Assembly: GCA_021772935.1 (NCBI GenBank)
Contig: JAJFLA010000046.1
Span: forward strand, 62,001-126,000
Direction: 5' to 3'
Source: Gammaproteobacteria bacterium
GTDB taxonomy: Bacteria; Pseudomonadota; Gammaproteobacteria; Xanthomonadales; SZUA-36
Length of the DNA stretch: 64,000 bases
Shown here piece by piece: positions 14,692-36,649 of the stretch; the first letter of the stretch is position 1, and the number at the start of each line of letters is the position of its first letter. The notes beneath the pieces were generated by a model. That model searched no databases, was not told where the DNA came from, and worked only from the letters and a program-made list of their open reading frames with translations. The position numbers and the translations under genes are program-made.

Positions 14692-14759
14692 GTAGCTTCA
14701 ACAAGAAGAGTATTCTTGATATCCTCAAGTATTGGGTGTTGTGAGACAGGATTTGTGTG

Positions 14760-15236: not shown

Positions 15237-15291
15237 GGCAACAGCCATGAAGCGCGGTTTTAGTAATAGGTGACCTGGTACCTGATGACGG

Positions 15292-16053: not shown

Positions 16054-16355
16054 CGTATTTCCTTGTTATGTGTGAGTATGAATGGTTCAAATTTTAAGCC
16101 GGGTGTTATCAGAAGTCACTGTTTTGGGGATTGCTTAGGCCACTTTTTCTTTGACTATGGCCGATATGCGGTGCGAGACGGAGACGCTTCGCGTCGCACT
16201 TGGCCCAGGCCACCTTCTCGAGCGGTGCCCGCTCTCACCTTGTCCATGTGCTCTTTCGCGAAATACCGCACGTCCTGTGCATAAAGTATTTGACTCTGGT
16301 GGTGATTAAATGGATTCTTGGTCACCATCCAGTCACACCCAAACGAAGAAAAAAT
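16054..16355. other. Divergent intergenic region before the POT gene
   Basis: About 300 bases between the divergent FabG-like and POT transporter genes. A short GC-rich hairpin (GACGC, TTC, GCGTC) lies near 16182-16194, within a wider GTGCGA/TCGCAC symmetry. An open frame from 16200 continues into the transporter, but its translation looks unlike protein and is not annotated. No convincing promoter picked out. Confidence 0.4.
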
Positions 16356-18089
16356 ATGAGCGCAATCGACAGCAACGATGTTTTTCATCCCGGTGAAGAG
16401 TTCTGGGGACACCCCAAAGGCCTGTATATCTGTTTTTTCACCGAAATGTGGGAGCGGTTTTCTTTTTATGGCATGAAAGCTTTGTTGTTTCTCTACCTTA
16501 TTAAGTACCACCTGATGGGGGATTCACTGAGTTACCAGTTATTAGGGGCTTATGGCGGTATGGTCTATGCCATGCCCGTGATTGGTGGCTTGTTGGCAGA
16601 TCGCTGGCTGGGTATGCGCAAGGCAGTGGTCGCGGGGGCCGTACTTTTATGCCTGGGGCATTTTGGCATGGCGTTTGAAGGTGAGCAGGCGCGGTTGGTC
16701 AGTGGTGAGGTCCAGCGGGATGAAGGCGCGTTACAGATTTTTTATTTTTCACTGGCATTGATTATTGGCGGTGTAGGCTTCCTGAAACCCAACATTTCAA
16801 CCATTGTTGGCAAACTTTACCCACAGAATGATCCACGTAGAGATGGTGGTTTTACCATTTTCTATGCTGGTATCAATATTGGCGCACTGTTTGCCAGCTT
16901 GATCTGTGGTTACCTGGGCGAGACATTTGGTTGGAAGTATGGCTTTGGTGCAGCGGGTATAGGCATGTTGCTGGGGCTCACGGTATTTTTAAGTGGACAA
17001 AAATATCTTCATGGCCATGCGGAGCCAAAAAAACCTGAATTGCTCAAAGAGCGTGTACTGGGGCCACTAAACCGCGAATGGACCATTTATCTGGGTTCGC
17101 TGTTGGGTATCGGTGTAATCTGGCAATTGATGCAACACACATGGACCGTCTCAGGTGTGATGCACATCATGTCCCTTATCTTGGTTGCGTGGTTTATTTG
17201 GTTTGTTACCAAGCAGTGCAATCGGGTTGAACGCCAACAGATGATCAGCCTGGTCGTGTTAATTCTGATGGTGCTGGTATTTTTTACTTTGTATGAGCAA
17301 ACCTATGGCTCCTGGGTGGCGTTTACCGATCGTCTTTTAACCAAAGACCTGTTCAGTATTGCTAACGCAACTGCTGAGCCTGTACTTCCATGGACCATAG
17401 TGCCGCTGGTGATCAGTCCACTAGCGATGTTGTTGGCATTAAGAATGGCAGGTCAGGGCAACTTACGCCGGAGTGAGATACTACTCGGATCGGTTGCGTT
17501 GCTGATGCTTGCTGCCTTTATCCGCGACATGTCTTTGGTGCAACAGACTGCAGGTTCGTTAACTTTCCTGGGTGCGTTTTTTATCGTCGTCTTAACCCCG
17601 TTTTTTACCTGGCTGTGGCCATGGCTGGATAGGCATGGCAAGAACCCCAGCAAGCCAGCCAAAAGCGCCATCGGGCTGTTGGTCGGTGGATTAGCCTTTC
17701 TGCCCATGGCTTATGCGGCACATCTCGCCGGTATCAATGGTATTGCAAGTGTCTGGTGGCTGGTGTTGGCTTATGGCATTCTTGAGTTGGGCGAACTTTG
17801 CATTTCACCCATCGGTTTGAGTGCAGTCACACAGTTGTCGGTACCCCGCGTAGTTGGGGTCATGATGGGTGCCTGGTGGCTTGGAACCGCTTATTCAGAG
17901 GTGCTGGCTGCGAAATTTGGTGAGTTGACCGCGATGGATGTGGCGGAAGGTGAAACACTGGATGTGGCTGTTGCCGCAACACGCTATGGTGACCTTTTCA
18001 TGATGATGTTCTGGATTGGAATCATTGCAGCAGCCGTAGCTTTTGCACTGGTACCGTTGGTGCGAAAGGGAATGCACGGTGTGAAGTGA
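16356..18089 (+). CDS. Proton-dependent oligopeptide transporter (POT/PTR2)
   Basis: Inner-membrane symporter for di- and tripeptides (577 aa). Helix 1 carries the proton-coupling motif EMWERFSFYGMKA; PTR2 signatures GGVGFLKPNISTIVGKLY and FYAGINIGAL follow; about 12-14 hydrophobic helices can be counted, with a long loop after helix 3 (EGEQARLVSG...). The start ATG 16356 is chosen because the preceding frame from 16200 has no transporter-like sequence; the upstream GAAGAA is a weak binding site. It stands alone, convergent with the TPR/FG-GAP operon. Confidence 0.93.
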   Translation: MSAIDSNDVFHPGEEFWGHPKGLYICFFTEMWERFSFYGMKALLFLYLIKYHLMGDSLSYQLLGAYGGMVYAMPVIGGLLADRWLGMRKAVVAGAVLLCLGHFGMAFEGEQARLVSGEVQRDEGALQIFYFSLALIIGGVGFLKPNISTIVGKLYPQNDPRRDGGFTIFYAGINIGALFASLICGYLGETFGWKYGFGAAGIGMLLGLTVFLSGQKYLHGHAEPKKPELLKERVLGPLNREWTIYLGSLLGIGVIWQLMQHTWTVSGVMHIMSLILVAWFIWFVTKQCNRVERQQMISLVVLILMVLVFFTLYEQTYGSWVAFTDRLLTKDLFSIANATAEPVLPWTIVPLVISPLAMLLALRMAGQGNLRRSEILLGSVALLMLAAFIRDMSLVQQTAGSLTFLGAFFIVVLTPFFTWLWPWLDRHGKNPSKPAKSAIGLLVGGLAFLPMAYAAHLAGINGIASVWWLVLAYGILELGELCISPIGLSAVTQLSVPRVVGVMMGAWWLGTAYSEVLAAKFGELTAMDVAEGETLDVAVAATRYGDLFMMMFWIGIIAAAVAFALVPLVRKGMHGVK

Positions 18090-18092
18090 AAT

Positions 18093-18106
18093 CAATCATA
18101 TGATTG
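18093..18106. repeat. Perfect 14-bp palindrome between convergent genes
   Basis: CAATCATATGATTG reads the same on both strands and is followed by a GTCGT-C-ACGAC symmetry. It sits in the 36-base gap between the POT gene and the TPR gene ends. It may be part of a bidirectional terminator, but there is no T-run. Confidence 0.4.
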
Positions 18107-18125
18107 TCGTCACGACCTGAAATGA

Positions 18126-19778
18126 TCAAGGGCCAGGGTTGTCGTTGCTTGCAGCATCTGTTGGAAAATTGCACGGATTGCTCGTTTTGTAGTGCTTCAG
18201 CTCCGCTTGCATTTTAGTCTTCATAACCTCATTGCTCTTGTTCAGGGCATCTATCGACCGTTGTTGCCACTTGGCTGCCTCACTACATTCACCTGATTCT
18301 GCATAAGCCATAGCAACTGTTCGGGCATGCCCGGTTGAGGGGCTTGCCTTGAAAACGGTCAGCGCCAGTGGTAGTGCCCGTTGTCCATCCCGGATTGATT
18401 TATCTGGACTCGCGGCAAGAAGCTTTGCCATTGCGTGCACGATGAGGCCGTTATTGGGAAGGTTTTTACGAGCTTGGTTGAGCACTCCCAATGCTTTACC
18501 GTACTCACCATTTTGTAACAACAGGCGCACGCCACCCAACCAGGCATTTTCAATCGTTGGATCAAGTAGTACGGTCTTGCGGTAAACCTCCATAGCTTCT
18601 TCAATACTAAGGTTCTTTTCTAGTGCCTGAGCGAGTAACAGATAAGCGCTGGCATCTTCGGTATTGCTTGTGGTTACTCGTTCCAGATGGGAGATGGCAT
18701 CCTGATATTTTCCGCTATTCATATAAAGAAAGCCCAGGTTGTAATGAATAGTCAGATTATCTGGTTCAAGCGCCAATGCTTTTAGTTGGTGCTCGAAAGC
18801 TTCCTCTGTATTGCCGGTTTGCATGAGTGCGGTACCCAGGTTGATATGAGCCCGGGCGCTGTCTTTGTTAAAGGACAAAGCCGTGCGGAAAGCTTCAATC
18901 GACTCTTCATAACGAGCGGCTGAATAGGCCAGTTTGCCACGCAAGAGATAGGAACGTTCGCCTTGTAACAAGTTATCTAAGTCTTCAATCCAGGGATCAT
19001 AAGGTTGAATACCGACACTCCCTCTTTGACGTAAATGATCGATGGCCTGTTCGGTGTTATGCAAGCCACGGTACGCCATTGCCAGAGGATAGTGCAGGCG
19101 GTTCGCATCGGGTTGACTGGTCAGTGCCGCAGCGAGAAAACTGATGGCCGTGCGATACTGCTTTTCCTCCACAGCCAGTTCCCCAAGACGAGCGAGGATC
19201 GCAGGTGATTCAGGGCGTAGGTAAAACGCTTGCAAATATGACTGACGTGCCTCTGCAAGCCGGTTCAAGGCATGATAAGTCTCCCCAATCCGTGTGCGCA
19301 GCAATGCTGGTTGAGGGTGTACGGCCTCGATCTGCTGATAGAGCTCAAGCGCCTCCAGTGGTCTGCCACTGTTCAGGTAAAGGTGTGCCAGATAATAGGT
19401 CCATTGAAACTGGTTGAGATCCAGACTTCGAGCGTTGCGGTAACATATTTCAGCGCCCAGATTGAGTTCATAGGCATGATAGAGCTTACCGAGTTCACCA
19501 TAGGCATCGGCGAGGTCCCGATTATTTTGATGTTTGCTGATCAGATCATCAAGCAAATCACGGGATTTTTCGAGCTGTTCGGCAACTGCAGGTTCCAGCG
19601 TCGATAGATCCTGCTCAGGAAGATCGAGTAAGGCATTTGCGTGCTCAACAATTTCTACGCCTTCGACGGCTGGCGAGAGTGATGTTTCAGCTGCGTTTAT
19701 GACGCCGACGAAGGTTGAGAGAACAAAAAGTATGCTGATCGTTCTGTATAGCTTAGTAACATGACTCATAGGGTTCAT
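18126..19778 (-). CDS. Exported tetratricopeptide repeat protein
   Basis: Protein of about 550 aa made of roughly ten TPR units, for example LADAYGELGKLYHAYE, RAHINLGTALMQTGNTEEAFE and LTIHYNLGFLYMNSGKYQDAISH. The start at 19778 gives a signal peptide (hydrophobic ISILFVLSTFVGVINA cut before AETS), so it acts in the periplasm or outside. A longer frame to 19904 would overlap the upstream FG-GAP gene and hide the signal peptide; ATG 19769 is an alternative start. It is the last gene of the six-gene operon and lies 49 bases after the FG-GAP gene. Likely a scaffold for the propeller proteins; no enzymatic motif seen. Confidence 0.85.
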   Translation of the reverse strand: MNPMSHVTKLYRTISILFVLSTFVGVINAAETSLSPAVEGVEIVEHANALLDLPEQDLSTLEPAVAEQLEKSRDLLDDLISKHQNNRDLADAYGELGKLYHAYELNLGAEICYRNARSLDLNQFQWTYYLAHLYLNSGRPLEALELYQQIEAVHPQPALLRTRIGETYHALNRLAEARQSYLQAFYLRPESPAILARLGELAVEEKQYRTAISFLAAALTSQPDANRLHYPLAMAYRGLHNTEQAIDHLRQRGSVGIQPYDPWIEDLDNLLQGERSYLLRGKLAYSAARYEESIEAFRTALSFNKDSARAHINLGTALMQTGNTEEAFEHQLKALALEPDNLTIHYNLGFLYMNSGKYQDAISHLERVTTSNTEDASAYLLLAQALEKNLSIEEAMEVYRKTVLLDPTIENAWLGGVRLLLQNGEYGKALGVLNQARKNLPNNGLIVHAMAKLLAASPDKSIRDGQRALPLALTVFKASPSTGHARTVAMAYAESGECSEAAKWQQRSIDALNKSNEVMKTKMQAELKHYKTSNPCNFPTDAASNDNPGP

Positions 19779-19827
19779 TTTTTGAACACTCACCTGGGTT
19801 GTTGTTAATGGGTGACTGGTAGACTGC

Positions 19828-21552
19828 CTAATAGTTGCCATCTGTTTGTCTGATTTCAGTATATTGCGATGCTGGTGGAAGTGGTCGTGTTTCCTGGCTG
19901 CCATCAGGCCATCTTATTTGCAGGGATTTCTCCTGTGGGTGATCAGGGTAAGTAAACAATACCCGTGGATCATTCGCAGAACAATAACTGCCGTCTGTTC
20001 CGGTCCTGAACCATTGTTGCTTTTTACCAGCTTGTGTCAGAAAGATTTCTGTACCAGGCAGGTCTCGCCTGGATTTCGTTGCGGTCAGACGCAGACCAAT
20101 CCAGTCTCGGGTTTTGCTTACAAGGTTTAGCAGCAATTGCGCGGGTCCGTTATTGTTGAGTATCAATACATCCAGATCGCCATCATTGTCTATATCACCA
20201 AAGGCTGCGCCTCGACTGACATATGAATCTTTTAAGGGTGAGCTTGTGGCATAGTTGGCTTCAGAGAACCCCTTGCCAGCCTCATTGTGAAACAACTGAT
20301 TGGGTTGGTGCAGCGGGTAGGGATCCTTTTTGTTCGCCAGTGGCTCCAGTTCGGTTACTGCCCCATTAAGCACCAGTAAATCAAGCCAGCCATCATTGTC
20401 ATAGTCCAGCCAGCCCGTACCAAATGTGGTGTAGGGGAAGCTGCTGCTGCCGAGACCATAAAACAGTGTGCGGTCTTCGAACAGGCCTCGCCCCTCGTTG
20501 CTGTAAAGGGTATTGGTTTCGCCCATCAAGTGAGTAATAAACAGGTCCGGATCACCGTCCCGGTCAAAGTCACCAACATCAACACCCATACTGGCTTCGG
20601 CACGACCTTGAATGTTTACGGCAGTACCGGCATAAAGCGCATTATTGACGAACTTTTTACCTTTTTGGTTAATCCACATCTGATTCGCCTGGCCATCATT
20701 GGCGACATAAATATCAATCCAACCATCCTGGTTGAAATCCGCTGTAATCACGCCGAGACCGGCGCCTGCCTGATAGTTCATCATTAACTGATCGCTGACT
20801 TCTTCGAATTCGCCACCGCCAAGGTTATGAAAAAGACGATCATGAAGGGCAATAAAACTTGCCGGCCCACAATAATCCTGTCGGCTGCTTTTGGCATAGC
20901 AAGTATTGTTCTTCAGAACTGAAAAGTCTACGTAATTGCTGACATACAGGTCCAACCATCCGTCACGATCGTAATCAAGAAAGGCAGCGCTGGTACCCCA
21001 TTGCTCGTCCATGGTGTGAGAGCTCTCGGTCACATCGGAGAAGGTGCCATTGCCGTTATTTCTGAGCAGATGATTGCTGCCATATTGGGTGACGTAAAGG
21101 TCCGTCCAGCCATCATTGTTATAGTCACCGGTGGTTACACCCATACCATAACCAGTCATCAACAGACCGCTTTGCTTGGTAACATCCCGAAAACTGAGTT
21201 TACCGGTTGATTTGCCATTGCTGATCAATTCATTCCGGAACAGGCGATCGACAATAGGAGTGGCAGCCGGTGGGAACAAGGCATCTTCTATCGTCTTGCC
21301 GGGTCCGAGCATACTGCCTTGCAGCAGGTAAATATCGAGATCTCCATCATTGTCAAAATCGAATAATGCAGCCCCCGCACCGGTCATTTCAGGAAAATAA
21401 TGTTGCCCCGACATGCCATTAAAATGGACAAATATCAGACCAACCTCTTCTGCAACATCCTTGAAAACAGCTTCGTTGTCTGCTGTGCTCAATACTGGGC
21501 ACAGCAGCCAACAGCACAGACAGAAGAACAGCCCATGGCGACGACTACTCAT
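19828..21552 (-). CDS. FG-GAP/ASPIC-UnbV (CRTAC1-like) repeat protein
   Basis: Exported protein of 574 aa. Signal peptide with LFFCLCCWLLCPVLS and cleavage near TAD. It then has at least six FG-GAP/VCBS units with Ca2+-binding loops of the form D-X-D-X-D-G-X-X-D (DFDNDGDLDIYLL, DYNNDGWTDLYV, DYDRDGWLDLYV, DFNQDGWIDIYV, DFDRDGDPDLFI, DIDNDGDLDVLI), and a C-terminal ASPIC/UnbV domain (about 485-565: GLRLTATKSRRDLPG...IRWPDGSQE). A seven-bladed propeller is expected. Its ATGA start overlaps the stop of the multiheme cytochrome gene, so the two are made together. Role unknown. Confidence 0.88.
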   Translation of the reverse strand: MSSRRHGLFFCLCCWLLCPVLSTADNEAVFKDVAEEVGLIFVHFNGMSGQHYFPEMTGAGAALFDFDNDGDLDIYLLQGSMLGPGKTIEDALFPPAATPIVDRLFRNELISNGKSTGKLSFRDVTKQSGLLMTGYGMGVTTGDYNNDGWTDLYVTQYGSNHLLRNNGNGTFSDVTESSHTMDEQWGTSAAFLDYDRDGWLDLYVSNYVDFSVLKNNTCYAKSSRQDYCGPASFIALHDRLFHNLGGGEFEEVSDQLMMNYQAGAGLGVITADFNQDGWIDIYVANDGQANQMWINQKGKKFVNNALYAGTAVNIQGRAEASMGVDVGDFDRDGDPDLFITHLMGETNTLYSNEGRGLFEDRTLFYGLGSSSFPYTTFGTGWLDYDNDGWLDLLVLNGAVTELEPLANKKDPYPLHQPNQLFHNEAGKGFSEANYATSSPLKDSYVSRGAAFGDIDNDGDLDVLILNNNGPAQLLLNLVSKTRDWIGLRLTATKSRRDLPGTEIFLTQAGKKQQWFRTGTDGSYCSANDPRVLFTYPDHPQEKSLQIRWPDGSQETRPLPPASQYTEIRQTDGNY

Positions 21553-23636
21553 TTTCCTGCAAACTGTCGCTCACCATTGCGCACCTGTTCTATTCGGGAT
21601 ACTTCATTAAGTTCGATCGGAATACGCAAAGACTCGCGTGTAATGGTTGTTACCGGTGTGCGCAGTCCAGCTTGTGCGCCAAACAAGCGATCCATGAATG
21701 CCGCATCAGCCTTTTGATACTTAAGTTCAACGGTAATCTCCAGCTCTCTGACACCCGTCGGTGCGTTGAAATTAAATGCCTTGTTCTCACTATCCGCCTG
21801 ATTCGAGGCTAGCGTCATGGCGCTGGGGCAGATGAATTGATAGCTGGCGCTGTCTGCCATACCAGGGAAAAGTACCCGTTTGTACTGTGCCCCGACCATC
21901 TCCCACAAATTGTGGCGATCGATTGAATTGCCTTCACGATCAATCCCTTCGGCTTTGAATATCACCGCATCCGGACTCATGTGTCCATCGGCATCCGGTT
22001 TTCCACTTTCGTAAATGATATTTCCATGATCATCGCTCACCGTGAGCTCAACCCAGCTGCGAATAATATCCATCGGACCGGTGGGAAAGCCATGACCGGT
22101 TTTGTTATTGGTCAAAACCAGTTGCAGATCCACCTGTTCACCCGGGTGTACGCTCGCCGGACCCGCCAGTTCGAGACGAATAACCGGGCCGGCGACCCAA
22201 CGGTCAGCTATTTCAGGTATCTCGATCTTACCCTGCAACCATTTTTCTGTGAGTTCGACATGTTCCTTTGCACCGGTCAAGCCCATTAACAGGGGCATGA
22301 CCTGATTAGCGGCCAGAAAACGGTGTGAACGGTGCTTGCCATCGTTCACATTACGATTGACATCAGCCTTATCACCGGCTGAGGGGTCGGTTGAGTCAAC
22401 CAGGGGCATATGGCACTCACGGCAGGTGATGGTTTTGCTTTGATCATCTTCATCATGCCAACGGCTTTCCTTCCAGTTATCGTATTGGTTTTGTAATTGA
22501 ACCCAACCAAACTGATTAACCTCCTCATCAATAAACTGTTTGTGACAGGCACCGCAGTATTCGGCTGTCTTGTGCATCGGCTTTGTGAAACTGGCGACAT
22601 GTTGCTGTGGATAGGCACGAATCAGAAAATCGCTAAGCCACTTGTTGAGGCGGCCAGGCTTGCGCTCACCAACATAACGAAGCGGCTGGGTGATGGTGTA
22701 GTCGGCATTACCGCGCACATCGGTACGGATAATAGAATGACATGAAATACAGGAAATACCCTCATCTGCACCTGGTGATGTCAATCCATCGACATTGACG
22801 TTTTTACTGCCGGAGAATAATGCGATGGGATCGTGACAACCCGCACAATATCGTGTTCCTTCCGGTCCAATATCTTCATAAAGCAGTTTCTGTACTTCCT
22901 GGAAGGCAAGATCAGAAGAAGAGTAACGGTGCGCACTGGGGGTCCATTCTGCAAGGATCTGCTCATGACACCCGCTGCTGCCACAACTCTTAGAGCCGGA
23001 CAAGGTAGCAGGGTCATAAGCACCATTGCTTTGTGTGTGCCCCAGACTCGGTGCAAATGGCCTGTCTTCACCCAGTGGGAAGGTATAGTCTTCCGGGAAA
23101 ATATTGTTTGTCTCAGGACCTGGGTTAATGCTGGGGATGACAGCCTGTACGAGCAACAATGCCACCGAGCCACCGACAAGCAGTCGTAAAAACCGTTTTT
23201 TATTTTGTCGTAGGACAACATCAGGGTTACGTCCCCAGGTCATCGCCAGGTGTGTCACTGTTGCCAGTATCAACGTCAAGCCGGAATAGAGGTGGACAGT
23301 TGACCAACCGTAGCTGATACGCGTGCCCAACGTGGCTTCAATGGTTAACCAGACACCCGTGATCAGGCAGACCAGGATCAGAACAAATCCTATATAGCCC
23401 AGTAATTGCACATGATTGAAATTAGATCTGAAACGCCTCCACCAGTGGCGGATCGAGTACCAAAGAAACGCGAGGATCCAGATCAGTCCAATAAAGGTAT
23501 GTAATAACACGCCATACTGGTTGATTTCTGTGAAAGCTGTGAGGTAAATCAGCAAACCGGTTATTGCTTCAAAAGTGAGCCCGATCATACAGATCAGAGT
23601 GAGTGGGGATAGCCATTCCGGGGTGATCTTTTTCAT
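21549..23636 (-). CDS. Membrane cytochrome b fused to pentaheme cytochrome c
   Basis: Protein of 695 aa in three parts. Residues 10-135 form four membrane helices with His46, His64, His115 and His129 placed as two possible b-heme ligand pairs; a fifth helix at about 153-170 carries the chain across the membrane. Residues 215-410 hold five c-type heme sites: CGSSGCH (218-224, CX4CH), CAGCH (264), CISCH (296), CGACH (361), CRECH (405). The rest (about 470-670) is a beta-rich domain with NNKTGHGFPTG. This layout suggests quinol oxidation passing electrons to a periplasmic multiheme domain. Coupled by ATGA to the FG-GAP gene downstream and 76 bases after the nitrilase gene. Confidence 0.85.
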   Translation of the reverse strand: MKKITPEWLSPLTLICMIGLTFEAITGLLIYLTAFTEINQYGVLLHTFIGLIWILAFLWYSIRHWWRRFRSNFNHVQLLGYIGFVLILVCLITGVWLTIEATLGTRISYGWSTVHLYSGLTLILATVTHLAMTWGRNPDVVLRQNKKRFLRLLVGGSVALLLVQAVIPSINPGPETNNIFPEDYTFPLGEDRPFAPSLGHTQSNGAYDPATLSGSKSCGSSGCHEQILAEWTPSAHRYSSSDLAFQEVQKLLYEDIGPEGTRYCAGCHDPIALFSGSKNVNVDGLTSPGADEGISCISCHSIIRTDVRGNADYTITQPLRYVGERKPGRLNKWLSDFLIRAYPQQHVASFTKPMHKTAEYCGACHKQFIDEEVNQFGWVQLQNQYDNWKESRWHDEDDQSKTITCRECHMPLVDSTDPSAGDKADVNRNVNDGKHRSHRFLAANQVMPLLMGLTGAKEHVELTEKWLQGKIEIPEIADRWVAGPVIRLELAGPASVHPGEQVDLQLVLTNNKTGHGFPTGPMDIIRSWVELTVSDDHGNIIYESGKPDADGHMSPDAVIFKAEGIDREGNSIDRHNLWEMVGAQYKRVLFPGMADSASYQFICPSAMTLASNQADSENKAFNFNAPTGVRELEITVELKYQKADAAFMDRLFGAQAGLRTPVTTITRESLRIPIELNEVSRIEQVRNGERQFAGK

Positions 23637-23712
23637 TTTCTAGTCCAACCTTTGTCTCCTCATCCTGGTCTTCACTGGTTGCAAGGCCACGATGAATGGG
23701 TGGTGGTCAATG

Positions 23713-24717
23713 TCAACTTTTTGGTTCATTAAAACCCAATTTACATTTGGATTTTTCGATCAGTGATGTCTGTGCCTCCGCGCTACGTAATTTTGCGCCA
23801 CTACCGGCCTGAAAAACAGTTTTTCTTTGCGCTGTGTAGAGCTCGGTGCGTAACTGTGCCGGCATCGAGTGACCTATACGGCGCTGTCGCTCCTGGCGTA
23901 ACGCTTCGATATTAATAGGTGCCACCACGATACGTTGACCTGGACCCGCTGAGGCCTCTGCCAGAATTCGACCGTCATAATCCACCACCATACTGCCACC
24001 TGGCCACGAAAAGGGTGGATACTTCTGGCCCGAAGCACCCTGGTTGGCAGCAACCACATAGCACATGTTCTCGAGTGCACGGCAGCGATTAACAGTGGTC
24101 CACCAATCCATCGGTGCAGTTGCGCCCCAAGGGTCCATATAGGCAGATATCCGGATCAATACCTCCGCACCACGCAGGGTCAACTCGCGCGTGACTTCGG
24201 GGAAAATCCAGTCATAACAGGTTGCAACCGCCAGGTTACCAATAGCTGTCTTAACAACGGGAAAAGGATCGTCCGGATAGTCCGGTATATCGTGTGGACT
24301 GGCCGCAACCTCCCAAGGAATCCATGGATTGACTTTACGATATTTTGCCAGAATGCCTTCGGGACCGATCAGGCAAGTGCTGTTGAAAACTATGTCAGGC
24401 CAGCGCTCGTCGACCTCCAGAAAGCTACCTGTCTGTACATAAACCCCTAATTCATTGGCTTTGGCAGTGATACGTTCAGTGTGTTCATTGGGAAGTGGCA
24501 CGGCTAGTTTTTCAAGTAATTCTTCAACCGTTGCATAGATAGGGGCAGCATGGGCAAATTCCGGAAAGACCACCAGCTTGACATCATGAAAGGGCTGGTA
24601 ACCGATAACCGCTTGTTCGATCATTTCCAGCATGCGGTCAGTATTGCTCCGCATCTGTTCACGGTTGGCCGGGTTAGGCTGATCCACTTGACAGGCTGCG
24701 GCATAATAGATTGTCAT
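23713..24717 (-). CDS. Carbon-nitrogen hydrolase (nitrilase superfamily)
   Basis: Amidohydrolase-fold enzyme of 334 aa. The catalytic triad is visible as Glu53 (FPEFA), Lys128 (KYRKVNPW) and Cys167 (ATCYDWIFPE). The extended C-terminus beyond residue 290 is basic and hydrophilic. No signal peptide, so it is cytoplasmic although it sits among exported proteins. The family hydrolyses nitriles, amides, ureido groups or transfers acyl groups; YRKVNPW and CYDWIFPE fit aliphatic amidase or carbamoyl-amidase types but do not settle the substrate. It lies 18 bases after the large lipoprotein gene, so it belongs to the operon. Confidence 0.88.
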   Translation of the reverse strand: MTIYYAAACQVDQPNPANREQMRSNTDRMLEMIEQAVIGYQPFHDVKLVVFPEFAHAAPIYATVEELLEKLAVPLPNEHTERITAKANELGVYVQTGSFLEVDERWPDIVFNSTCLIGPEGILAKYRKVNPWIPWEVAASPHDIPDYPDDPFPVVKTAIGNLAVATCYDWIFPEVTRELTLRGAEVLIRISAYMDPWGATAPMDWWTTVNRCRALENMCYVVAANQGASGQKYPPFSWPGGSMVVDYDGRILAEASAGPGQRIVVAPINIEALRQERQRRIGHSMPAQLRTELYTAQRKTVFQAGSGAKLRSAEAQTSLIEKSKCKLGFNEPKS

Positions 24718-24735
24718 TGCGAATATTCTCTACAG

Positions 24736-27700
24736 TTAGTGACCGGAACGGTATCGTGTATTGTATTGACGGTGCAGTCGTTCACGCTCGATCGGGTCGT
24801 TGTGGTTTGATGGTAGTGGTCCAACGGTGCTGCCATCTTTGGTATAAAGGTCCATATCCTTGGCCCAGCCAAAACTCTCAAAGATAAAAGTTCTGCTCCA
24901 GCTTTCTTCAAGCGTGTTTGCAGTATCCTTAAAAGCCAATTCCACGGTTTCTCCGGGGCCGATGATGACCAGGGCATCATCTTTGGCTGCAATCAGTTCC
25001 GTGACATCACCGAATTCTGTATAAAACCCGGTCATATGTCGGGTATCCCAAAATGGATTCGATTGGTCATAATCGTAATTCGGCAGACGTTGGGGCCCGG
25101 TGCTACGCTTTGGAAAACCGTTGTTACGAAGTGTGGCTATTTCAAAGGGGTAGCTGTGACGCCTGACATCAGTCGGTAATTCACTGTAAGCGACTGTTAT
25201 TCTGTCCCAGTAGATCTCCTGGTTGGTACGCAGTCGCAGTTTCTGTGTGCCCTTGGGTAACTTGCCCAACGGCACCGACATACGTCTGGGCATGCCTGCC
25301 GGGTAACCGAACTGATCCATTAATATGACCCATTCGCCATCTTCACCCTGGGCATCTATCGATGGGGCCAAGTATGGCGCCCCTGCTTGCCAGGCGGCAA
25401 ACATGGTTTGTGAGTAGGGGTATTCGATCCAGCCGTCAATCACCAGCATCGGCTCACCCACAGGGGTATCGAGGGTTTGTGCAAATGCCAGTGTCAAACT
25501 GTGCTGTTTTTCCAGCAGGCCGATAAATCGGGAATCCAGGTTTCCCACCGGAGCTGCTTTCAGGTCGGCAGCAAGGATGCTTGCAGTGACATTTTCCTGT
25601 TGATCGTTGATCGCGCTAATGGGTGATAATTCGGTTCGATAAAACCTGGGTTCACCGCTTGCCTGAGGCCCAAGTATTGCACTGCGCTCGTCCAGCACCA
25701 GTTGCCAGCCGGGCGGCAGATCGTAACTGGTCAGCCGTGCCTGGTCCAGGTAGGCTGCTTCTTCCATTGGCTCGCCGAGGCTTAACATAAACAGGCCTTT
25801 CCTGGCCTGCAGTAATCCACCAGGTAATTGCAAGTTTTCCCTCGGGCGTGGTTCAGCATATTCACCGTAGCCGGTCTCAAAGCCAAGCCCGCCGACGCCA
25901 AGAATATCACTGATGAAACGGTATCTTTGCCCATCCCAGGCAAACAGAACCGGACAACTGGCCAGTTGTCGCTGGGTCTCCGAAATTGTGTGCAATTGAC
26001 CTGTGGCGACATCAAGTTCGGTCTGAAATACGCCATCGGACCATTCCAGCGCGATAAAGTCTGCCCGATCAGCACCACCCAGACCAATTGTATAAGGTTG
26101 CAGGCTCTGACCCGGCCCGCTGCTTTGACGAAAGGCGCTGATCGCTGACCAACGATCGCCAACCCGCACGGCAGCATGAGTACCGATACCCGAGGCATTG
26201 GACCGCATGGAGTGCTCAGCTTTATTTTTGCCTCTGAAATTCAAACCTATAAACGGGTACCTGCCTTTCCCGGTTTGCCAATACAGTAGTTGACCCTGTT
26301 GACTCAGGGCGACAACAGACGGACCTGATGATACCTGGTTGTTGAAGGGTATCCAGGTCAACAGGTCAGGCTTTTCAGCGGTTGAGACAGGCGATAATTG
26401 CTTATCTTCAATATGAAAAACAGTCCAGCCTCCAGTCGTCGTGCGTAGCAGCTCACTTGTACCATCTCCATTGATATCCAATAGTGCCATGCGGCTGTTT
26501 CTGTCAGCCTTGAAATCTGCCTTGCTCATGAGTGTGGTTGGCTGCCAGATACCCAGCGCGTCCGCTTGCCAGCGACTCACCTGTCCTTGTTCAGAAAGGC
26601 TATAAAGCTCTGGAATGCCATCGGCATTTCGGTCTGTGGCCAGTGCTGCCACGGTGGGTATGGATTTGAACAGGTCAAACCCAGGTGCGGCTTGATAACG
26701 CCACAACAAATCATTCAGATAGACCTCATGCTCACCCTTGTCATTGATCACCAGAATATCCGTGTCCCGATCCCGATCCAGATCAGTTAACACAACTGAT
26801 CGACTATCTGAATCAGAACCCGATAAACCTACTTCTGCTGCGAGTGCTCTGAAGCTGCCATTCAGATTGTTATTGAGCAGTTCATTCGGTCCATCACCAT
26901 TGACGAGAAAGATATCCAGATCGCCATCGTGATCTGCATCAAAAAGGGCACCATCCCGGGTGTTCCAGTTGCCATTGGAGGTAACTGGAGTGCTTACATT
27001 TTGCCAACTGCCGGCCAGTGTTTGCTGCCAATGCTGATTGGGCCCATTTCTGCAGAGGTAAAGATCCAGCAGACCGTCGTTATCGATATCGCCCCATAAC
27101 ACCGCATTGATCCCTGGTATTCCGGTTAATGGATGATCCAGGGCCGGCGTAAAACCTCCATCTGAATGGCCCAGTAAAACCGTATTTATTTGATTTTCAT
27201 CTGCATGGCTTGAGCTGATAAAGAGATCCAGATAGCTATCATGGTTGATATCAGCGGTGGTGATAGTGGGCCTTGATTGCGGATTTGCAAAGCGCAACTC
27301 GTCCAGCAAAACCAACGGTTGCTTGAACAATGGTCCCTTCGGCTTGGCATTGACTTTGAAGTGACCCAGATTAAATGTTCTGACCTCAGCCTTTGGTCCC
27401 ATACGTGTATATTTAAATTCTGCTTGATGAGAACGTGGGTTGCGCGCCATTTTTTGATAGCGGTCGAGCATATCCCTGGCCTGATCGGCGTGACCCAATT
27501 TGCGTAGTGTTTGGAACGCCCCGTAATAACCACTTCGCAGATAAGGATCAAGTTCAATGGTTTTTTGATACCAGCGCAGCGCGGTTTCTACTTGACCAAG
27601 CTGTGCCAGGCTCAAAGCCAGATAGTAACTGGCATAAGCGTCGTCGGGATCTACCTTGACTACCCAGGTAAAATGCTGCACGGCTTGATCAAGTGCGCCT

Positions 27701-28047
27701 GCATTCAGCTCAAGTAATCCGCTAAGGTAATGTACCCGCGGCTTGTGTGCCGAATATTCCAGTATGGCCGTTAGTTGCGTAAGTGCTTTCGCTTCATCGC
27801 CCGCTTGTTGCCGGTTCAAGATTGCTATGGCCAGGTCAATCTGCAAATCAAGATTGTCCGGGTTATTCTCAACCAGCGCGGCAAGCTCAGTCATTGCTGC
27901 CGCATAACGGTACTGACCCATTAAACCGACTGCCCGGTTATGTTGGGTCAAATCGACATCGGATAGCATGACGGAATCCGGTTCTCCACAGGCGCAGAGA
28001 AGAAGCAGGGTGGCTATCAATAAATACGTTCGGCTGATTGTATAAAT
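24736..28047 (-). CDS. Large TPR plus FG-GAP lipoprotein, apparent ATT start
   Basis: About 1100 aa, exported. Read from the ATT at 28045-28047 the start is a full lipoprotein signal: basic residue, hydrophobic TYLLIATLLLL, and lipobox LCAC with Cys21. Residues 30-200 hold four to five TPR units (YASYYLALSLAQLGQVETAL). From about 250-560 come FG-GAP units (DINHDSYLDLFI, DIDNDGLLDLYL, DADHDGDLDIFL, DLDRDRDTDILV, DINGDGTSEL). An ASPIC/UnbV-like segment follows (about 600-680), then a unique 400-residue region. A TTG at 28018-28020 is the first usual start, but leaves only ten residues before the Cys and no basic n-region; CTG 28050 is another option. AGGA lies 7 bases before ATT. Confidence 0.82.
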   Translation of the reverse strand: MYTISRTYLLIATLLLLCACGEPDSVMLSDVDLTQHNRAVGLMGQYRYAAAMTELAALVENNPDNLDLQIDLAIAILNRQQAGDEAKALTQLTAILEYSAHKPRVHYLSGLLELNAGALDQAVQHFTWVVKVDPDDAYASYYLALSLAQLGQVETALRWYQKTIELDPYLRSGYYGAFQTLRKLGHADQARDMLDRYQKMARNPRSHQAEFKYTRMGPKAEVRTFNLGHFKVNAKPKGPLFKQPLVLLDELRFANPQSRPTITTADINHDSYLDLFISSSHADENQINTVLLGHSDGGFTPALDHPLTGIPGINAVLWGDIDNDGLLDLYLCRNGPNQHWQQTLAGSWQNVSTPVTSNGNWNTRDGALFDADHDGDLDIFLVNGDGPNELLNNNLNGSFRALAAEVGLSGSDSDSRSVVLTDLDRDRDTDILVINDKGEHEVYLNDLLWRYQAAPGFDLFKSIPTVAALATDRNADGIPELYSLSEQGQVSRWQADALGIWQPTTLMSKADFKADRNSRMALLDINGDGTSELLRTTTGGWTVFHIEDKQLSPVSTAEKPDLLTWIPFNNQVSSGPSVVALSQQGQLLYWQTGKGRYPFIGLNFRGKNKAEHSMRSNASGIGTHAAVRVGDRWSAISAFRQSSGPGQSLQPYTIGLGGADRADFIALEWSDGVFQTELDVATGQLHTISETQRQLASCPVLFAWDGQRYRFISDILGVGGLGFETGYGEYAEPRPRENLQLPGGLLQARKGLFMLSLGEPMEEAAYLDQARLTSYDLPPGWQLVLDERSAILGPQASGEPRFYRTELSPISAINDQQENVTASILAADLKAAPVGNLDSRFIGLLEKQHSLTLAFAQTLDTPVGEPMLVIDGWIEYPYSQTMFAAWQAGAPYLAPSIDAQGEDGEWVILMDQFGYPAGMPRRMSVPLGKLPKGTQKLRLRTNQEIYWDRITVAYSELPTDVRRHSYPFEIATLRNNGFPKRSTGPQRLPNYDYDQSNPFWDTRHMTGFYTEFGDVTELIAAKDDALVIIGPGETVELAFKDTANTLEESWSRTFIFESFGWAKDMDLYTKDGSTVGPLPSNHNDPIERERLHRQYNTRYRSGH

Positions 28048-28057
28048 CAGAGGTTCC

Positions 28058-29875
28058 TTAATTTATTGTTTTGATGCCGTTATAGTTTACGACATGTTGT
28101 ACCTGGTTAACCATGTTCAGAGTGAGATCCTGGTAGGATTCTTCTGTACCGTCTGGCCAATTGACAGTCACTGTTTCAATGCGGTCTGCTGGACCCAGAC
28201 CAAAGTTGATATCGGTTGAATGCTGGGACAGGTAGCTACCACCGCCTCCTACCTGTGCAGTCTGGGTCATACTCGTGCTCCTGACCGTAACCACTGCGCC
28301 TTGCGCAAACACATTAGCGCCCGATTGACGCAGACGTAAACCAAGCCAGTTATTGCTCGACTTTGTTGTATTTTTTAGCAACATAAGTTCACCGCCATGA
28401 ACTTGTACCGCGATATCCACCAGACCATCTCCGTCGAAGTCGGCCTGTGCACCGCCACGACCCACGAAGGGCTTTAGCAGTAGTGGATTCGCCTGGCCGG
28501 AGACTTCAAAAAACCCTGCTTCGGGTTCATGTTGGTACAGGTGCATTTGCTGTGGTTTGAGGTGGGTGTTGTCATCAGGTATCTGCAAGGTGCTGCCATT
28601 GATTACCCATAAGTCCGGGTAACCGTCATGATCGAAGTCGCTAAACCCGGTTGCCCAGCCAACGTTTCTCAACGAAACCTGACCCAAGCCTGACATTTCA
28701 GCATTATCCATGAAAAACAATCTAGCTTGTCCGGCCTTGTTACTCAGACCCTCAGAAGTCATATTCTCAAACAGTCCATTTTCCTGCGCCAGCCAATGGG
28801 TTACAAACAGATCAAGGTCCTGGTCCTGATCAATATCGGCGAGCGCGAGACCCATGGCTCCACGGTAATCAGCCGCCAGAGAAGATGCCCCGATATCTGT
28901 GAAAGTTCCATCGCCACGGTTACGATAAACACTGTTTGCCGAAATATCATTCGCGACATAGAGATCTGGCCAGCCATCGGCGTCAAAATCAGCCCAGACA
29001 ACACCCAACGAACGTCCCTCACTATTGGCGACACCCGCATCGACAGCAATGTCGGTGAAGGTGCCATCGCCATTATTGCGATAAAGCCGGTTGGCAACCG
29101 GTGCGTATGAAGAGGGGTTTATCGTATAGGGGGTTTCTGATTCATATTGTTTGGAGCTCCGTCTCTTGTCGGTCGAGTGGTATTCAAACTGCACATAGTT
29201 GTTGACATAGAGATCCAGGTGGCCGTCGCGGTTATAGTCGCCCCAGGCGATAGACGTGCTGAAGCTATTATCCCCAACACCCGCTTGTTTGGTCACATCT
29301 TCAAAACTAGAATCACCATTATTTCGATACAATCGGTTTGCACCAAAACAACTGATATAGAGATCGAGCTGGCCATCATTATTGTAGTCCCCCCAGGCAG
29401 CACCAAGACCAAAATCTGGCTGGTTGAGGCCTGACTGTCCAGTGACGTCAGTAAAGTGGCCTTTACCGTCATTACGGTAGAGTGCGTGCATACCGGGCTG
29501 GCTGTTCTTCTCATCCACAATGCCATGCTGAAAGTTGACCAGAAAAAGGTCCGGGTCACCGTCATTATCATAGTCTCCCCAGGCAAGCCCAGAGCCCATA
29601 TCCTCCGGCAGCAGTGAATTGCGTATGGCAGGGAAATGTCTGAATGCTATGCCTGAGTTCTTGACCGGTTTAAAGCTCAAGCGGGTCTCCACCTGTTGAC
29701 CACGGCTGAGAACACTGGTGATTGCATTGGCAGTGGGCTGTGAATCGCCGCTATTGCTGACCGGCTTAAGTAGATCAGCAAATATCAACACGGCCAGGAT
29801 CAAACTCAGAACAAGCACAGCACTACTCCATTGATAGAGCAGTCGTCGGCGTTTGCTGAGGTGACGAAATAACAT
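28058..29875 (-). CDS. Membrane-anchored FG-GAP/ASPIC-UnbV (CRTAC1-like) protein
   Basis: Protein of 605 aa that opens the six-gene operon. A basic start (HLSKRRRLLYQ) and one hydrophobic helix at about 16-36 anchor it, with the rest exported. Seven FG-GAP repeats carry Ca2+ loops (DYDNDGDPDLFL, DYNNDGQLDLYI, DYNRDGHLDLYV, DFDADGWPDLYV, DIDQDQDLDLFV, DFDHDGYPDLWV, DFDGDGLVDIAV) plus recurrent LYRNNGDGTFTD between blades. The ASPIC/UnbV domain is at about 510-590 (WLGLRLRQSGANVFAQG, VNWPDGTEES). It resembles the protein at 19828-21552 in layout but not closely in sequence. Probable surface propeller; ligand unknown. Confidence 0.88.
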   Translation of the reverse strand: MLFRHLSKRRRLLYQWSSAVLVLSLILAVLIFADLLKPVSNSGDSQPTANAITSVLSRGQQVETRLSFKPVKNSGIAFRHFPAIRNSLLPEDMGSGLAWGDYDNDGDPDLFLVNFQHGIVDEKNSQPGMHALYRNDGKGHFTDVTGQSGLNQPDFGLGAAWGDYNNDGQLDLYISCFGANRLYRNNGDSSFEDVTKQAGVGDNSFSTSIAWGDYNRDGHLDLYVNNYVQFEYHSTDKRRSSKQYESETPYTINPSSYAPVANRLYRNNGDGTFTDIAVDAGVANSEGRSLGVVWADFDADGWPDLYVANDISANSVYRNRGDGTFTDIGASSLAADYRGAMGLALADIDQDQDLDLFVTHWLAQENGLFENMTSEGLSNKAGQARLFFMDNAEMSGLGQVSLRNVGWATGFSDFDHDGYPDLWVINGSTLQIPDDNTHLKPQQMHLYQHEPEAGFFEVSGQANPLLLKPFVGRGGAQADFDGDGLVDIAVQVHGGELMLLKNTTKSSNNWLGLRLRQSGANVFAQGAVVTVRSTSMTQTAQVGGGGSYLSQHSTDINFGLGPADRIETVTVNWPDGTEESYQDLTLNMVNQVQHVVNYNGIKTIN

Positions 29876-30020
29876 GTGGCATCCTAACTGGTGTCGTGTG
29901 TGGGTTTCCAGTATTGAACCCGTGCACGTATCAAGGTCAACCGTACCATCAGTTTGGGCTAAGGCTGGCGAACTTATGTGTTTTTATTCTTTGCCTACCG
30001 GTTTTTGCGTACACTGGGAT

Positions 30021-31184
30021 ATGCATTGTAAATGTTATTCTTCTATCGCTGATATACCACCTTTGTTGTGGAATGGCCTGTTTGACAGTGAAAACCCTTT
30101 TATACAGCACGCCTATCTACTGGCACTGGAACAAAGCGGTTGTGTTAGTACTCAAAAGGGCTGGCAACCTCAGCACATGATGTTGATGCGTGATGAGCGG
30201 CCGTTGGCGGTTATGCCACTGTATGCCAAAACTCACTCTTATGGTGAGTTTGTGTTTGACTGGGGTTGGGCCGATGCGTATGCCCGTCACGGCTTGGAGT
30301 ACTATCCAAAACTGCTGACTGCCGTTCCTTTTTCACCGGTTGCAGGCCCGCGCGTTGGTATTTCATCAACGGTCGAGGCGGACGAAGTGTTTGCGGCTTT
30401 GTTAAATACGGTACATCAATTGGCAGCATCACACGATTATTCAAGCTGGCATTTATTGTTTCCCGGTCAGCGTCTGCAGCAGGCATTGGCAGCGATGAAA
30501 GACGAGGGTGCTTTTTTGCATCGTGAGGCCGTGCAATTCCGCTGGCTCAATCGTGATTACCGTCAATTTGATGATTTTCTGACTACGCTGCGTTCTTCCA
30601 GACGTAAAAACCTGAAGCGAGAGAGAAGATTGGTGACAGAGCAGGGTGTTAGCATTCACAGAAAAATTGGTATGGAAATCAGTGATGAGGAATGGCAGGG
30701 CTTTTACCACTGCTATATAAATACCTATCGCAAACGCAGTGGTCACGATGGCTATCTCAACCGCGATTTCTTTGATCGATTACGCGAGACTATGGTTGGG
30801 CAAATGATGTTGGTGGTCGCGCGCCATGACCAACAAATTGTTGCCTGTTCATTATTCTTCTTTGACAGCCGCCGTTTGTACGGACGTTATTGGGGCGCCT
30901 TGCAGAATATTTCATGTTTGCATTTTGAGGCCTGTTTTTACCAGGGCATTGAGTTTTGTATAGAACATGGCTTGCAGGAGTTTGATCCGGGAACCCAAGG
31001 GGAACATAAGTTGATGCGCGGCTTCGAGCCAGTCAAGAGTGCATCCTATCACTGGATTGCCGATGAGCGCTTTCGTCTCGCTATAGCGGACTTTCTGAAC
31101 CATGAAAGAGACAGTACAAATGAATACCAACAGCAGGCTGAAGCCTATTTGCCCTACAAAAAAACTGCTACACCATCAGCATAA
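30021..31184 (+). CDS. DUF482/FemAB-like N-acyltransferase
   Basis: GNAT-fold protein of the COG3146 family (387 aa). The start at 30021 gives the family-typical opening, with IADIPPLLWNGLF and NPFIQHAYLLALE; a longer frame from 29874 would overlap the divergent FG-GAP start. Other family landmarks are WGWADAYARHGLEYYPKL, AVQFRWLNRDY, LRSSRRKNLKRERR, LFFFDSRRLYGRYWG and FDPGTQGEHKLMRGFEPV. The family is thought to transfer acyl or aminoacyl groups; the substrate is undefined. It sits head-to-head with the FG-GAP operon and 7 bases from the convergent DUF3025 gene end. Confidence 0.87.
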   Translation: MHCKCYSSIADIPPLLWNGLFDSENPFIQHAYLLALEQSGCVSTQKGWQPQHMMLMRDERPLAVMPLYAKTHSYGEFVFDWGWADAYARHGLEYYPKLLTAVPFSPVAGPRVGISSTVEADEVFAALLNTVHQLAASHDYSSWHLLFPGQRLQQALAAMKDEGAFLHREAVQFRWLNRDYRQFDDFLTTLRSSRRKNLKRERRLVTEQGVSIHRKIGMEISDEEWQGFYHCYINTYRKRSGHDGYLNRDFFDRLRETMVGQMMLVVARHDQQIVACSLFFFDSRRLYGRYWGALQNISCLHFEACFYQGIEFCIEHGLQEFDPGTQGEHKLMRGFEPVKSASYHWIADERFRLAIADFLNHERDSTNEYQQQAEAYLPYKKTATPSA

Positions 31185-31191
31185 TTTATCG

Positions 31192-32010
31192 CTATAGGCT
31201 TATCACAGGTGCCGGAATCAATTCCTTGCCAGCTGGTCTGAACACCTGCAGGTTATCGTAAAACTCGCTGTTGCCCTGTTCGCTAACTGGCCACCAGCCA
31301 GGCACACCTGCCAGTGGCAAGGGCGCGAGACAGGCCGTTTCAGTCAGTAGTTTGCCGCTCAGCATTCGTTGTGCAATGACTCTATCCAGATGGCTCAGTA
31401 TTTCCTGCCTGGGACGTGTCATGAGACTTGTATCTACATGCACGAGCAAAGCCTTCGCAGTCATGGACTTGTAGGGTGACAAGTATTTCTCAAGCATCGC
31501 GTGACCGCTAATGGATAGTTGTATTGCAGCACTGAAAGCCTCAGTCAGAAAGGCTTCATGCCAGCGTCGGTGTGCCAAGGCGGTGAGAATTTTCCGGTTA
31601 TTGGAAAATACAATAACCCCACATTCATCAAACAAGGTCAAGGCATCGCGCAGACGCCCCCTGCTGCCATCTCTTTGCTCTGACCAGGCATTGTAATGCA
31701 AGCTATTCATCGCGGTTTTGATGCACGGAAACCGCATCCAGACAAGGGCGTTGAACAAATCATGCCAGTTTTCCGTGCGTGTGCTGACCTGACCAGTGGT
31801 GTAAATTCGGCGTTCATAAGCATCATTGTCAAGTTGAGTGCTCGGAACAAAATGGATGCTTTGTCCGCTGACGGAACTCAAACCGTCGGGCAGCAGGGCA
31901 TTGAGTTGGTCACAGTTCGGGAAATTCTTACCAACCAGACATTGTAAAAATGACAGGTAGTCCTGCCAGTACGGCAGGTTCGAGTCAAAGTGTGTGTTTG
32001 ATAGCCTCAC
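31192..32010 (-). CDS. DUF3025 family protein
   Basis: Conserved protein of 272 aa. The DUF3025 core is plain: NWHDLFNALVWMRFP, KTAMNSLHYNA, RDALTLFDECGVIVFS, RRWHEAFL, then GHAMLEKYLSPYKSMTAKALLV and a C-terminal PLAGVPGWWP. No signal peptide or membrane helix; cytoplasmic. Function unknown. It begins at a GTG inside the end of the fabH gene (26-base overlap on the same strand), which indicates coupling. Common next to housekeeping genes in gammaproteobacteria. Confidence 0.85.
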   Translation of the reverse strand: MRLSNTHFDSNLPYWQDYLSFLQCLVGKNFPNCDQLNALLPDGLSSVSGQSIHFVPSTQLDNDAYERRIYTTGQVSTRTENWHDLFNALVWMRFPCIKTAMNSLHYNAWSEQRDGSRGRLRDALTLFDECGVIVFSNNRKILTALAHRRWHEAFLTEAFSAAIQLSISGHAMLEKYLSPYKSMTAKALLVHVDTSLMTRPRQEILSHLDRVIAQRMLSGKLLTETACLAPLPLAGVPGWWPVSEQGNSEFYDNLQVFRPAGKELIPAPVISL

Positions 32011-33055: not shown

Positions 33056-33285
33056 AGTTCCTATTGTCCTGAATGGGTAAGTTCGTGAGACTAGCAGTGA
33101 AAATCGCAAAACTCAATGATCTGATCCATATTGATGCAAAGCACTCAACCCGTTTTCTTTGTGACAAGTAGCACCGACCAGTATGTGTGCTGGTTAAAAC
33201 AATAAACCAGTTCTAATCAGGGCTTGCCCAACGCATGTAGTTGTTGCACTCTGCCTCTTTTGCAGGGTTTTTACGGCTGTTACGA

Positions 33286-36594: not shown

Positions 36595-36614
36595 AATAGT
36601 GACAGGTACTGTTA

Positions 36615-36637
36615 ATATGTACCCTGTCGGTACATAT
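36615..36637. promoter_or_regulatory. Inverted repeat in the LysR divergent promoter
   Basis: ATATGTACC and GGTACATAT form perfect 9-bp arms around CTGTC, 13 bases before the LysR start. A further GGTACAT occurs at 36586-36592 and a GACAGGTAC/GTACCCTGTC symmetry overlaps the first. LysR regulators bind such interrupted dyads between divergent genes; binding here is inferred. Confidence 0.5.
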
Positions 36638-36649
36638 ACGAGACACTTG

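Follow-up and report, generated by a model that had tools for sequence, protein, structure and literature searches.

A recurring, mobile six-gene unit combining a pentahaem cytochrome, CRTAC1-type propellers, TPR proteins and a nitrilase-family amidase in a gammaproteobacterial genome

The stretch analysed here, called the window, comprises 64,000 nucleotides (positions 62,001 to 126,000 of contig JAJFLA010000046.1, assembly GCA_021772935.1) from a gammaproteobacterium of the order Xanthomonadales. A preliminary description, made from the sequence alone, had pointed to a six-gene operon of propeller, tetratricopeptide repeat (TPR), nitrilase and multihaem cytochrome proteins. All six open reading frames (ORFs) were indeed found within positions 18126-29875 on one strand, and Pfam backed each of the labels. 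The genes are arranged in tandem on the minus strand; their transcription order is PROP1, TPRFG, NIT, CYT, PROP2, TPR (Table 1). While the parts of this operon are ordinary, their assembly is unusual and well conserved, and the six genes represent a genuine, recurring, mobile unit. Tentatively, and a little short of even confidence, we favour the reading that the operon encodes one transferable cell-envelope electron-transfer system, in which the cytochrome, propeller, TPR and nitrilase proteins work together.

Genes of the operon and their products

The distances of 18, 76 and -4 bases between neighbouring genes, as given in the preliminary description, followed from the coordinates. The distances of 10 and 49 did not hold for the longest ORFs, which are separated by 37 bases in one case and overlap in the other, and they require other start codons. 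An ATT at 28047 or a CTG at 28050, with AAGGA upstream, would lengthen the lipoprotein signal of TPRFG, and one of them is probably the start of this gene. The promoter scan gave nothing beyond shuffled sequences (7 found vs 14.5 expected), and the terminator scan, with 16 against 10.8 expected (standard deviation 3.1), carried no clear signal. Neither a tRNA nor an Rfam family reaching the gathering score was present in the window, and a comparison with PHROGs gave nothing useful.

Table 1. Features of the operon and its site (positions within the window)
Feature	Description	Position	Strand	Basis
PROP1	CRTAC1-type propeller (FG-GAP_3 + UnbV_ASPIC) with N-terminal hydrophobic stretch; first gene	28058..29875	-	Pfam, propeller tree
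TPRFG	Lipoprotein: TPR (~30-190), FG-GAP_3 propeller, ASPIC-like stretch, conserved C-terminal part (~690-1090)	24736..28020	-	Pfam, lipobox, orthologues
NIT	Nitrilase-superfamily amide hydrolase	23713..24717	-	CN_hydrolase, nearest structures formamidase, alignment n=21
CYT	Five N-terminal helices, pentahaem c domain, Ig-like domain	21549..23636	-	Cytochrome_C554 Pfam, alignment, model
PROP2	Exported CRTAC1-type propeller (FG-GAP_3 + UnbV_ASPIC)	19828..21552	-	Pfam, propeller tree
TPR	Exported protein with TPR; start probably close to 19778	18126..19904	-	Pfam TPR; homologues adjoin PROP2 elsewhere
Variable stretch	Present in the window, absent at the site in six same-genus genomes	18088..30000		Flank homology
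POT	POT peptide transporter, flank	16200-18089
FemAB-like	FemAB-like gene, flank; true start near 30020	29874-31184 (as ORF)

CYT contains five c-type haem motifs (CX4CH at residue 218; CXXCH at 264, 296, 361 and 405), which, together with the histidines H46, H64, H115 and H129, were invariant in an alignment of 50 sequences including that of the window. In the structural model of CYT (mean predicted local distance difference test score, pLDDT, 77.7), five long N-terminal helices (residues 11-170) are followed by the periplasmic part. We took these helices as membrane helices, and the four histidines could ligate two b haems. Residues 208-672 could be superimposed on the pentahaem cytochrome c552 (5ze8) with a Z score of 19.5 and a root-mean-square deviation of 3.7 over 335 residues; the next structural match (Z 11.8) concerned the Ig-like domain only. 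Moreover, c552 was the sole solved chain that the sequence of CYT reached at E 0.1 or better. As in CYT, in the PHC family, to which c552 of Thermochromatium tepidum and ExtKL belong, five c haems precede an Ig-like domain. Contrary to c552 and ExtKL, CYT begins with a set of helices that hold four invariant histidines, its first motif is of the CX4CH type, and it is paired with a CRTAC1 propeller. Its score against the ExtKL equivalog NF040886, 21.3 of the 250 bits required, was below the cut-off. Within the pentahaem c552/ExtKL group, the cytochrome domain of CYT represents a new variant that does not pass the ExtKL model. It had been proposed earlier that the cytochrome implies electron flow from quinol to the periplasm; CYT has the build of such a carrier and may mediate this flow. 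The CYT contig of one genome (G046, L171) also encodes, about 7 kb away from CYT, a second protein with weak similarity to it, a 580-residue ORF starting at 1221.

The likeness to c552 brings in another explanation, namely that CYT and the propeller and TPR lipoproteins conduct electrons from quinol to an insoluble or extracellular acceptor, with the nitrilase being merely co-resident. According to an excerpt of PMC11976967 (2025), c552 is grouped with ExtKL and the pentahaem family of cable bacteria, and a relation of these proteins to archaeal cytochrome nanowires is cited there. The weak, sub-cut-off match of CYT to the ExtKL model and the lipoprotein signal of TPRFG would fit this explanation as well. 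However, the gene context of the operon is unlike that which the same excerpt gives for ExtKL, where an outer-membrane porin and further multihaem cytochromes are encoded alongside, as no porin and no second multihaem protein were found by Pfam among the six proteins. The strict co-occurrence of NIT with the other genes, described below, would also be left unexplained. We consider such extracellular electron transfer unlikely.

In both PROP1 and PROP2, the FG-GAP and UnbV_ASPIC domains scored above the Pfam cut-offs, and putative calcium-type loops, such as DFDNDGDLD, are visible in the propeller sequence. In the propeller tree, PROP1 shared a clade with the propellers encoded behind the planctomycete-type cytochrome, and PROP2 with those that adjoin TPR and TPRFG in other genomes. 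UnbV_ASPIC was just sub-threshold in TPRFG (19.9 vs 23.4 bits), and the C-terminal part of this protein, about 400 residues, had no Pfam match. A lipobox is present in TPRFG of the window and was found by pattern in 17 of 23 orthologues longer than 900 residues. The model of the TPRFG tail was poor (pLDDT 59), and its Foldseek list was topped by low-probability capsid matches. Its match to CBM32 (prob 1.00, TMt 0.60, E 0.007) offers a weak lead that the tail may resemble galactose-binding-like sandwiches; the tail profile found no relative among the solved structures (best E 0.3). FG-GAP and TPR domains had been thought to imply an extracytoplasmic assembly. The envelope signals on the propeller and TPR proteins agree with such a location, where these proteins may form a physical assembly. 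PROP2-like matches at E 1e-60 were multiple in certain genomes (8 in G045, and 5 each in G071 and G047), as if the PROP2 family had multiplied there.

TPR and propeller folds are frequent scaffolds. In another explanation, the TPR and propeller proteins could be chaperones that build or load an exported redox enzyme encoded elsewhere, with CYT giving electrons for the maturation and NIT processing a precursor. The commonness of a scaffold role for these folds, the several PROP2-like matches in some hosts (8 in G045, 5 in G071), and the scattering of the parts in several genomes would suit a role in maturation or assembly. On the other side, the gene neighbourhoods in relatives of the same order contain no recurrent gene for a plausible exported client; the neighbours that do recur (AMP-binding and GCS2-CBS proteins, in 5 of 21 regions each) look by eye like general metabolism. 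Moreover, CYT is conserved as an enzyme would be, the identity of the window CYT to CYT outside its genus being 42-61%. A maturation role appears to us about as improbable as electron transfer to an extracellular acceptor.

The residues E53, K128, E136 and C167 of NIT, corresponding to the catalytic E-K-C and a second glutamate, were invariant in the alignment of 21 sequences, as were the tryptophans W132, W135, W170, W197, W205, W206 and W238. The nearest solved structures were those of formamidase. NIT shares with formamidase and aliphatic amidase the aligned E, K, C and second E, and the YRKxxPWxPxE motif. It differs from them in its equivalog scores, which passed neither cut-off (111.4 of 406 bits for formamidase, 84.3 of 427 bits for aliphatic amidase), in short insertions relative to formamidase, and in its invariant tryptophans. 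No signal peptide was seen in NIT by eye. The earlier step from the nitrilase to an amide or nitrile as the product found little backing: NIT looks cytoplasmic, its nearest relatives are formamidase and aliphatic amidase, and an amide is likelier to be its substrate than its product. A GCS2-CBS protein, the gene of which adjoins NIT in genomes labelled f5, f10 and f17 (by eye), was considered as a partner of NIT and set aside, because the only GCS2 match in the genome of the window lies on another contig and other NIT neighbourhoods are devoid of it.

Recurrence and mobility of the six-gene unit

The comparison of the window with genomes of the same genus delimited the operon sharply. Flank homology stopped at 18079-18098 and started again at 30001-30022. 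In six of nine same-genus genomes, the POT and FemAB-like flanks lay on one contig with no operon between them, the aligned parts of the flanks being 129 to about 3740 bases apart; for the remaining three, at least one flank was not found. Five of the six genomes with the operon-free site showed no CYT at any place in the genome. The sixth, G003, carries the same six genes in identical order at a different site, and the alignment of its operon DNA with positions 14000-34000 of the window covered 18229 to 29854 only. The empty site in the six genomes, together with the block in G003, indicates that a single block of about 11.9 kb was either acquired here or relocated, or else disappeared from all the other genomes. 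This block has the outer genes of the operon as its ends. The GC content of the operon (0.49-0.53) is similar to that of its surroundings, so that composition does not point to a recent transfer, and NIT had no match at 1e-40 when compared with plasmids by tblastn.

The expectation that the six families would co-occur in other genomes was borne out as to content, and the order was also kept in G003. Among 101 relatives, the NIT clade and the TPRFG clade occurred in the identical 19 genomes, all of them within the 22 that were CYT-positive at E 1e-20. The clade thresholds were set after a gap in the scores was seen: the 19 genomes had E values of 3e-110 or below for NIT, the next match having 1e-41, and of 2e-183 or below for TPRFG, the next having 8e-60. 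With a limit of E 1e-20, 33 of the 101 relatives had a NIT-like match and 23 a TPRFG match, the additional ones (14 for NIT, 4 for TPRFG) being weaker and separated by score. The NIT clade showed 55-84% identity in the sample of relatives. At 1e-60, PROP2 matches were found in 22 of the 101 relatives and 14 of 369 genomes of the class. As PROP1 itself scores 257 bits with PROP2, the counting of PROP2 requires 330 or 340 bits; by this rule, PROP2 was present in 17 of the 101 relatives and missing from three of the 19 (G010, G063, G094).

The class sample gave a similar picture. TPRFG was found in 10, CYT in 15, PROP2 (at least 340 bits) in 9, and NIT in 6 of the 369 genomes. Nine of the ten TPRFG genomes also had CYT and PROP2, the tenth match being a fragment (G233). 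TPRFG, CYT and PROP2 accompanied NIT in all six NIT genomes, and TPRFG and CYT accompanied PROP2 in all nine PROP2 genomes. The Fisher P values, uncorrected, ranged from 1.5e-9 to 3e-17, and from 4e-8 to 1e-15 when the genome of the window was left out. In both samples together, the TPRFG genomes carried 12 family labels.

The usual gene order in relatives of the same order was NIT, TPRFG, CYT, propeller. In G077, NIT, TPRFG, CYT, its partner propeller, PROP2 and TPR are contiguous, and several genomes outside the order have PROP2, TPR and TPRFG as one run. Scattered, unclustered homologues, which would have spoken against the operon as a conserved cluster, were seen in part. In G216, TPRFG, CYT and NIT are each on a contig of their own, far from its ends; in G047, CYT is apart from TPRFG and NIT; in the draft genomes G161 and G397, the lipoprotein, CYT and NIT are on different short contigs. 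Yet the parts co-occur in these genomes too. The case of G216 shows that linkage alone does not account for the co-occurrence, and scattered parts that still share genomes speak for the set. Without the window and G003, the sequence distances correlated with rho 0.93 between TPRFG and CYT and 0.75 between NIT and TPRFG; with both included, rho was 0.58 and 0.56, respectively, values each reached by 1 of 2000 permutations. Host kinship alone might also produce this agreement.

Linkage and history of the cytochrome-propeller pair

For the analysis of CYT loci, we used the best 80 of 162 relatives; the ORF caller gave CYT in 74 of them (all save L032, L047, L050, L060, L086 and L100). A CRTAC1 propeller gene lay directly after CYT in 67 of the 74 loci. 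As for the remaining seven, L065 and L066 are at contig ends, the propeller is at 206 bases in L048, L071 seems to be split, L078 carries at this place a long ORF that was labelled as a propeller in another scan, and L036 and L040 complete the set. The loci come from Planctomycetota, Acidobacteriota, Balneolota, Bacteroidota, Gemmatimonadota, Chloroflexota and Pseudomonadota. The occurrence of the CYT-CRTAC1 pair in these seven phyla suggests an old or often transferred module.

TPR domains recur with this pair in several forms. In the Pfam scan, TPR formed the tail of CYT in all five relatives of the same order that were scanned, and TPR was fused to the propeller in 18 of the 74 loci. With up to five genes considered per locus, 28 of the 74 loci had TPR in the vicinity of the pair, as compared with 1 of 405 other genes of these loci. 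Relatives of TPRFG with the conserved tail adjoin the pair or are one to three genes off in five loci (L034, L059, L065, L068, L081), and partial relatives are on the same contig as the pair in three (L046, L099, L103). In L093, the pair is followed by genes of a flavin/iron-sulfur oxidoreductase, a Rieske protein, cytochrome b and a multihaem c protein; the same run of gene sizes is present in L033 and L091, as judged from sizes only. In L094, a molybdopterin oxidoreductase gene follows the pair. On the Planctomycetaceae contig L059, a single case, a gene of a PF01425 amidase unrelated to NIT (14122-15594) lies 38 bases after TPRFG-CYT-PROP1, and it is possible that this amidase is a non-homologous stand-in for the nitrilase.

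The genes of the operon seem to differ in their histories. TPRFG, NIT and PROP2 belong to clades found in the order and class. CYT and PROP1 do not. The sampled relatives of the same order have a longer CYT that ends in a TPR tail and is only about 30-36% identical to CYT of the window, whereas CYT of the window is about 60% identical to proteins of Phycisphaerae. The window CYT grouped with Phycisphaerae with a local support of 100 in FastTree, and as a 6-row set at 100 in the quick IQ-TREE analysis of 56 rows (35 of 91 rows left out). In the approximately unbiased (AU) test, a topology that puts the window and G003 together with CYT-TPR on the same side of a branch was not rejected (p 0.43), because the long CYT-TPR branch can attach there. 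A metagenome-assembled genome of Lysobacterales (L098) has the planctomycete-type CYT as well. The CYT and PROP1 trees gave different nearest relatives. The simplest account is that CYT and PROP1 were replaced by distant equivalents; the AU result and the differing nearest relatives of the two proteins make this replacement likely only.

This difference in history, together with the presence of CYT elsewhere in genomes devoid of TPRFG and NIT, could mean that the six genes are unrelated, or form two unrelated modules (CYT-PROP1 and the other four), and were by chance inserted together. The same six genes, however, occupy another site in G003, the parts co-occur on separate contigs too, and all six are contiguous in G077 with a CYT and propeller of another clade. 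A chance neighbourhood is the least probable of the explanations considered, and we give it little weight.

A possible envelope electron-transfer system and its genomic surroundings

In the favoured reading of the operon as one cell-envelope electron-transfer system, CYT would take electrons from the quinol pool via the two putative b haems in the inner membrane and pass them to the five c haems in the periplasm, as its residues and fold suggest. The direction outward from quinol is the likelier one. PROP1, of a propeller type encoded right after CYT in nearly all loci of several phyla, would be its partner propeller and presumably bind to it. The signals and folds of PROP2, TPR and TPRFG, and the weak match of the TPRFG tail, would be consistent with a periplasmic, probably outer-membrane scaffold that holds or presents a redox partner or substrate. 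NIT has the family assignment and catalytic residues of an amide hydrolase, and it would probably act in the cytoplasm, hydrolysing an amide of the same pathway to the acid and ammonia. A more specific version, which we regard as doubtful, is that of an undescribed, horizontally mobile respiratory or catabolic system, in which a membrane-bound bc-type pentahaem cytochrome, exchangeable along with its propeller for a distant version and docked on a CRTAC1/TPR scaffold extending to the outer membrane, acts on a nitrogen-containing organic compound, the amide product being cut by a dedicated cytoplasmic amidase.

Several observations weigh against a single system of this kind. The N-terminal part of CYT scored sub-threshold in Pfam (DUF4405, 16.9 of 26.7 bits; cytochrome b561, 15.0 of 30.1 bits), so that the quinol donor is a deduction. 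TPR and FG-GAP proteins are common, TPR was near the pair in just 28 of the 74 loci, and a strict profile found the TPR tail of CYT in 7 of 18 relatives of the order and class. CYT occurred in 6 of 15 class genomes without TPRFG and NIT, indicating that the halves can work apart. NIT was below the chosen threshold in 4 of the 10 class TPRFG genomes and distant from TPRFG in G161, G216 and G397; its tie may be to another pathway. Finally, the Fisher values carry no correction for relatedness.

Inner-membrane quinol oxidation that feeds periplasmic c haems is known from NrfH-NrfA and CymA. The operon would work in a like manner, differing in the presumed b-type membrane part in place of a c-type anchor, and in its propeller and TPR partners. 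Proteins of the CRTAC1, FG-GAP and TPR kinds abound in environmental bacteria, mostly without known function; through a tight and testable tie to one multihaem cytochrome of defined type and to an amidase, some of these anonymous repeat proteins would become electron-transfer parts, and the cytochrome, the amidase and the scaffold offer three handles for a search for the substrate. According to an excerpt of PMC12758564, CRTAC1/FG-GAP genes flank those of hydrazine synthase subunit homologues in Planctomycetota and other bacteria, together with periplasmic multihaem proteins, some of which have cytochrome c554 domains. These loci resemble the operon in combining CRTAC1 genes with multihaem proteins, and CYT differs by its added membrane part. 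Pfam found no hydrazine synthase domain in the six proteins or the scanned neighbours; the subunits were not compared directly. The six-gene set is not described in the excerpts of PMC11976967 and PMC12758564. In agreement with the preliminary description, which knew of no system with this set, none was found among the matches listed in searches, partly on components, of the open PubMed Central literature, with subscription journals and preprints outside this scope.

The interval between the POT and FemAB-like genes differs in content among the same-genus genomes, which suggests that this site may be favoured for insertion. As judged by eye, a 429-442-residue ORF resembling a membrane transporter is present there in G005 and G006, and a 677-679-residue ORF resembling prolyl oligopeptidase in G002 and G007. 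Upstream of the POT transporter, the plus strand of the window carries the genes of an AMP-binding enzyme (10686-12206) and an enoyl-CoA hydratase (12914-13726). Beyond the FemAB-like gene, a 770-residue ORF (45902-48214) gave a short DUF2914 match only, and the gene of a free-standing Glu_synthase domain protein (37933-39516) adjoins that of a LysR-type regulator (36542-37549).

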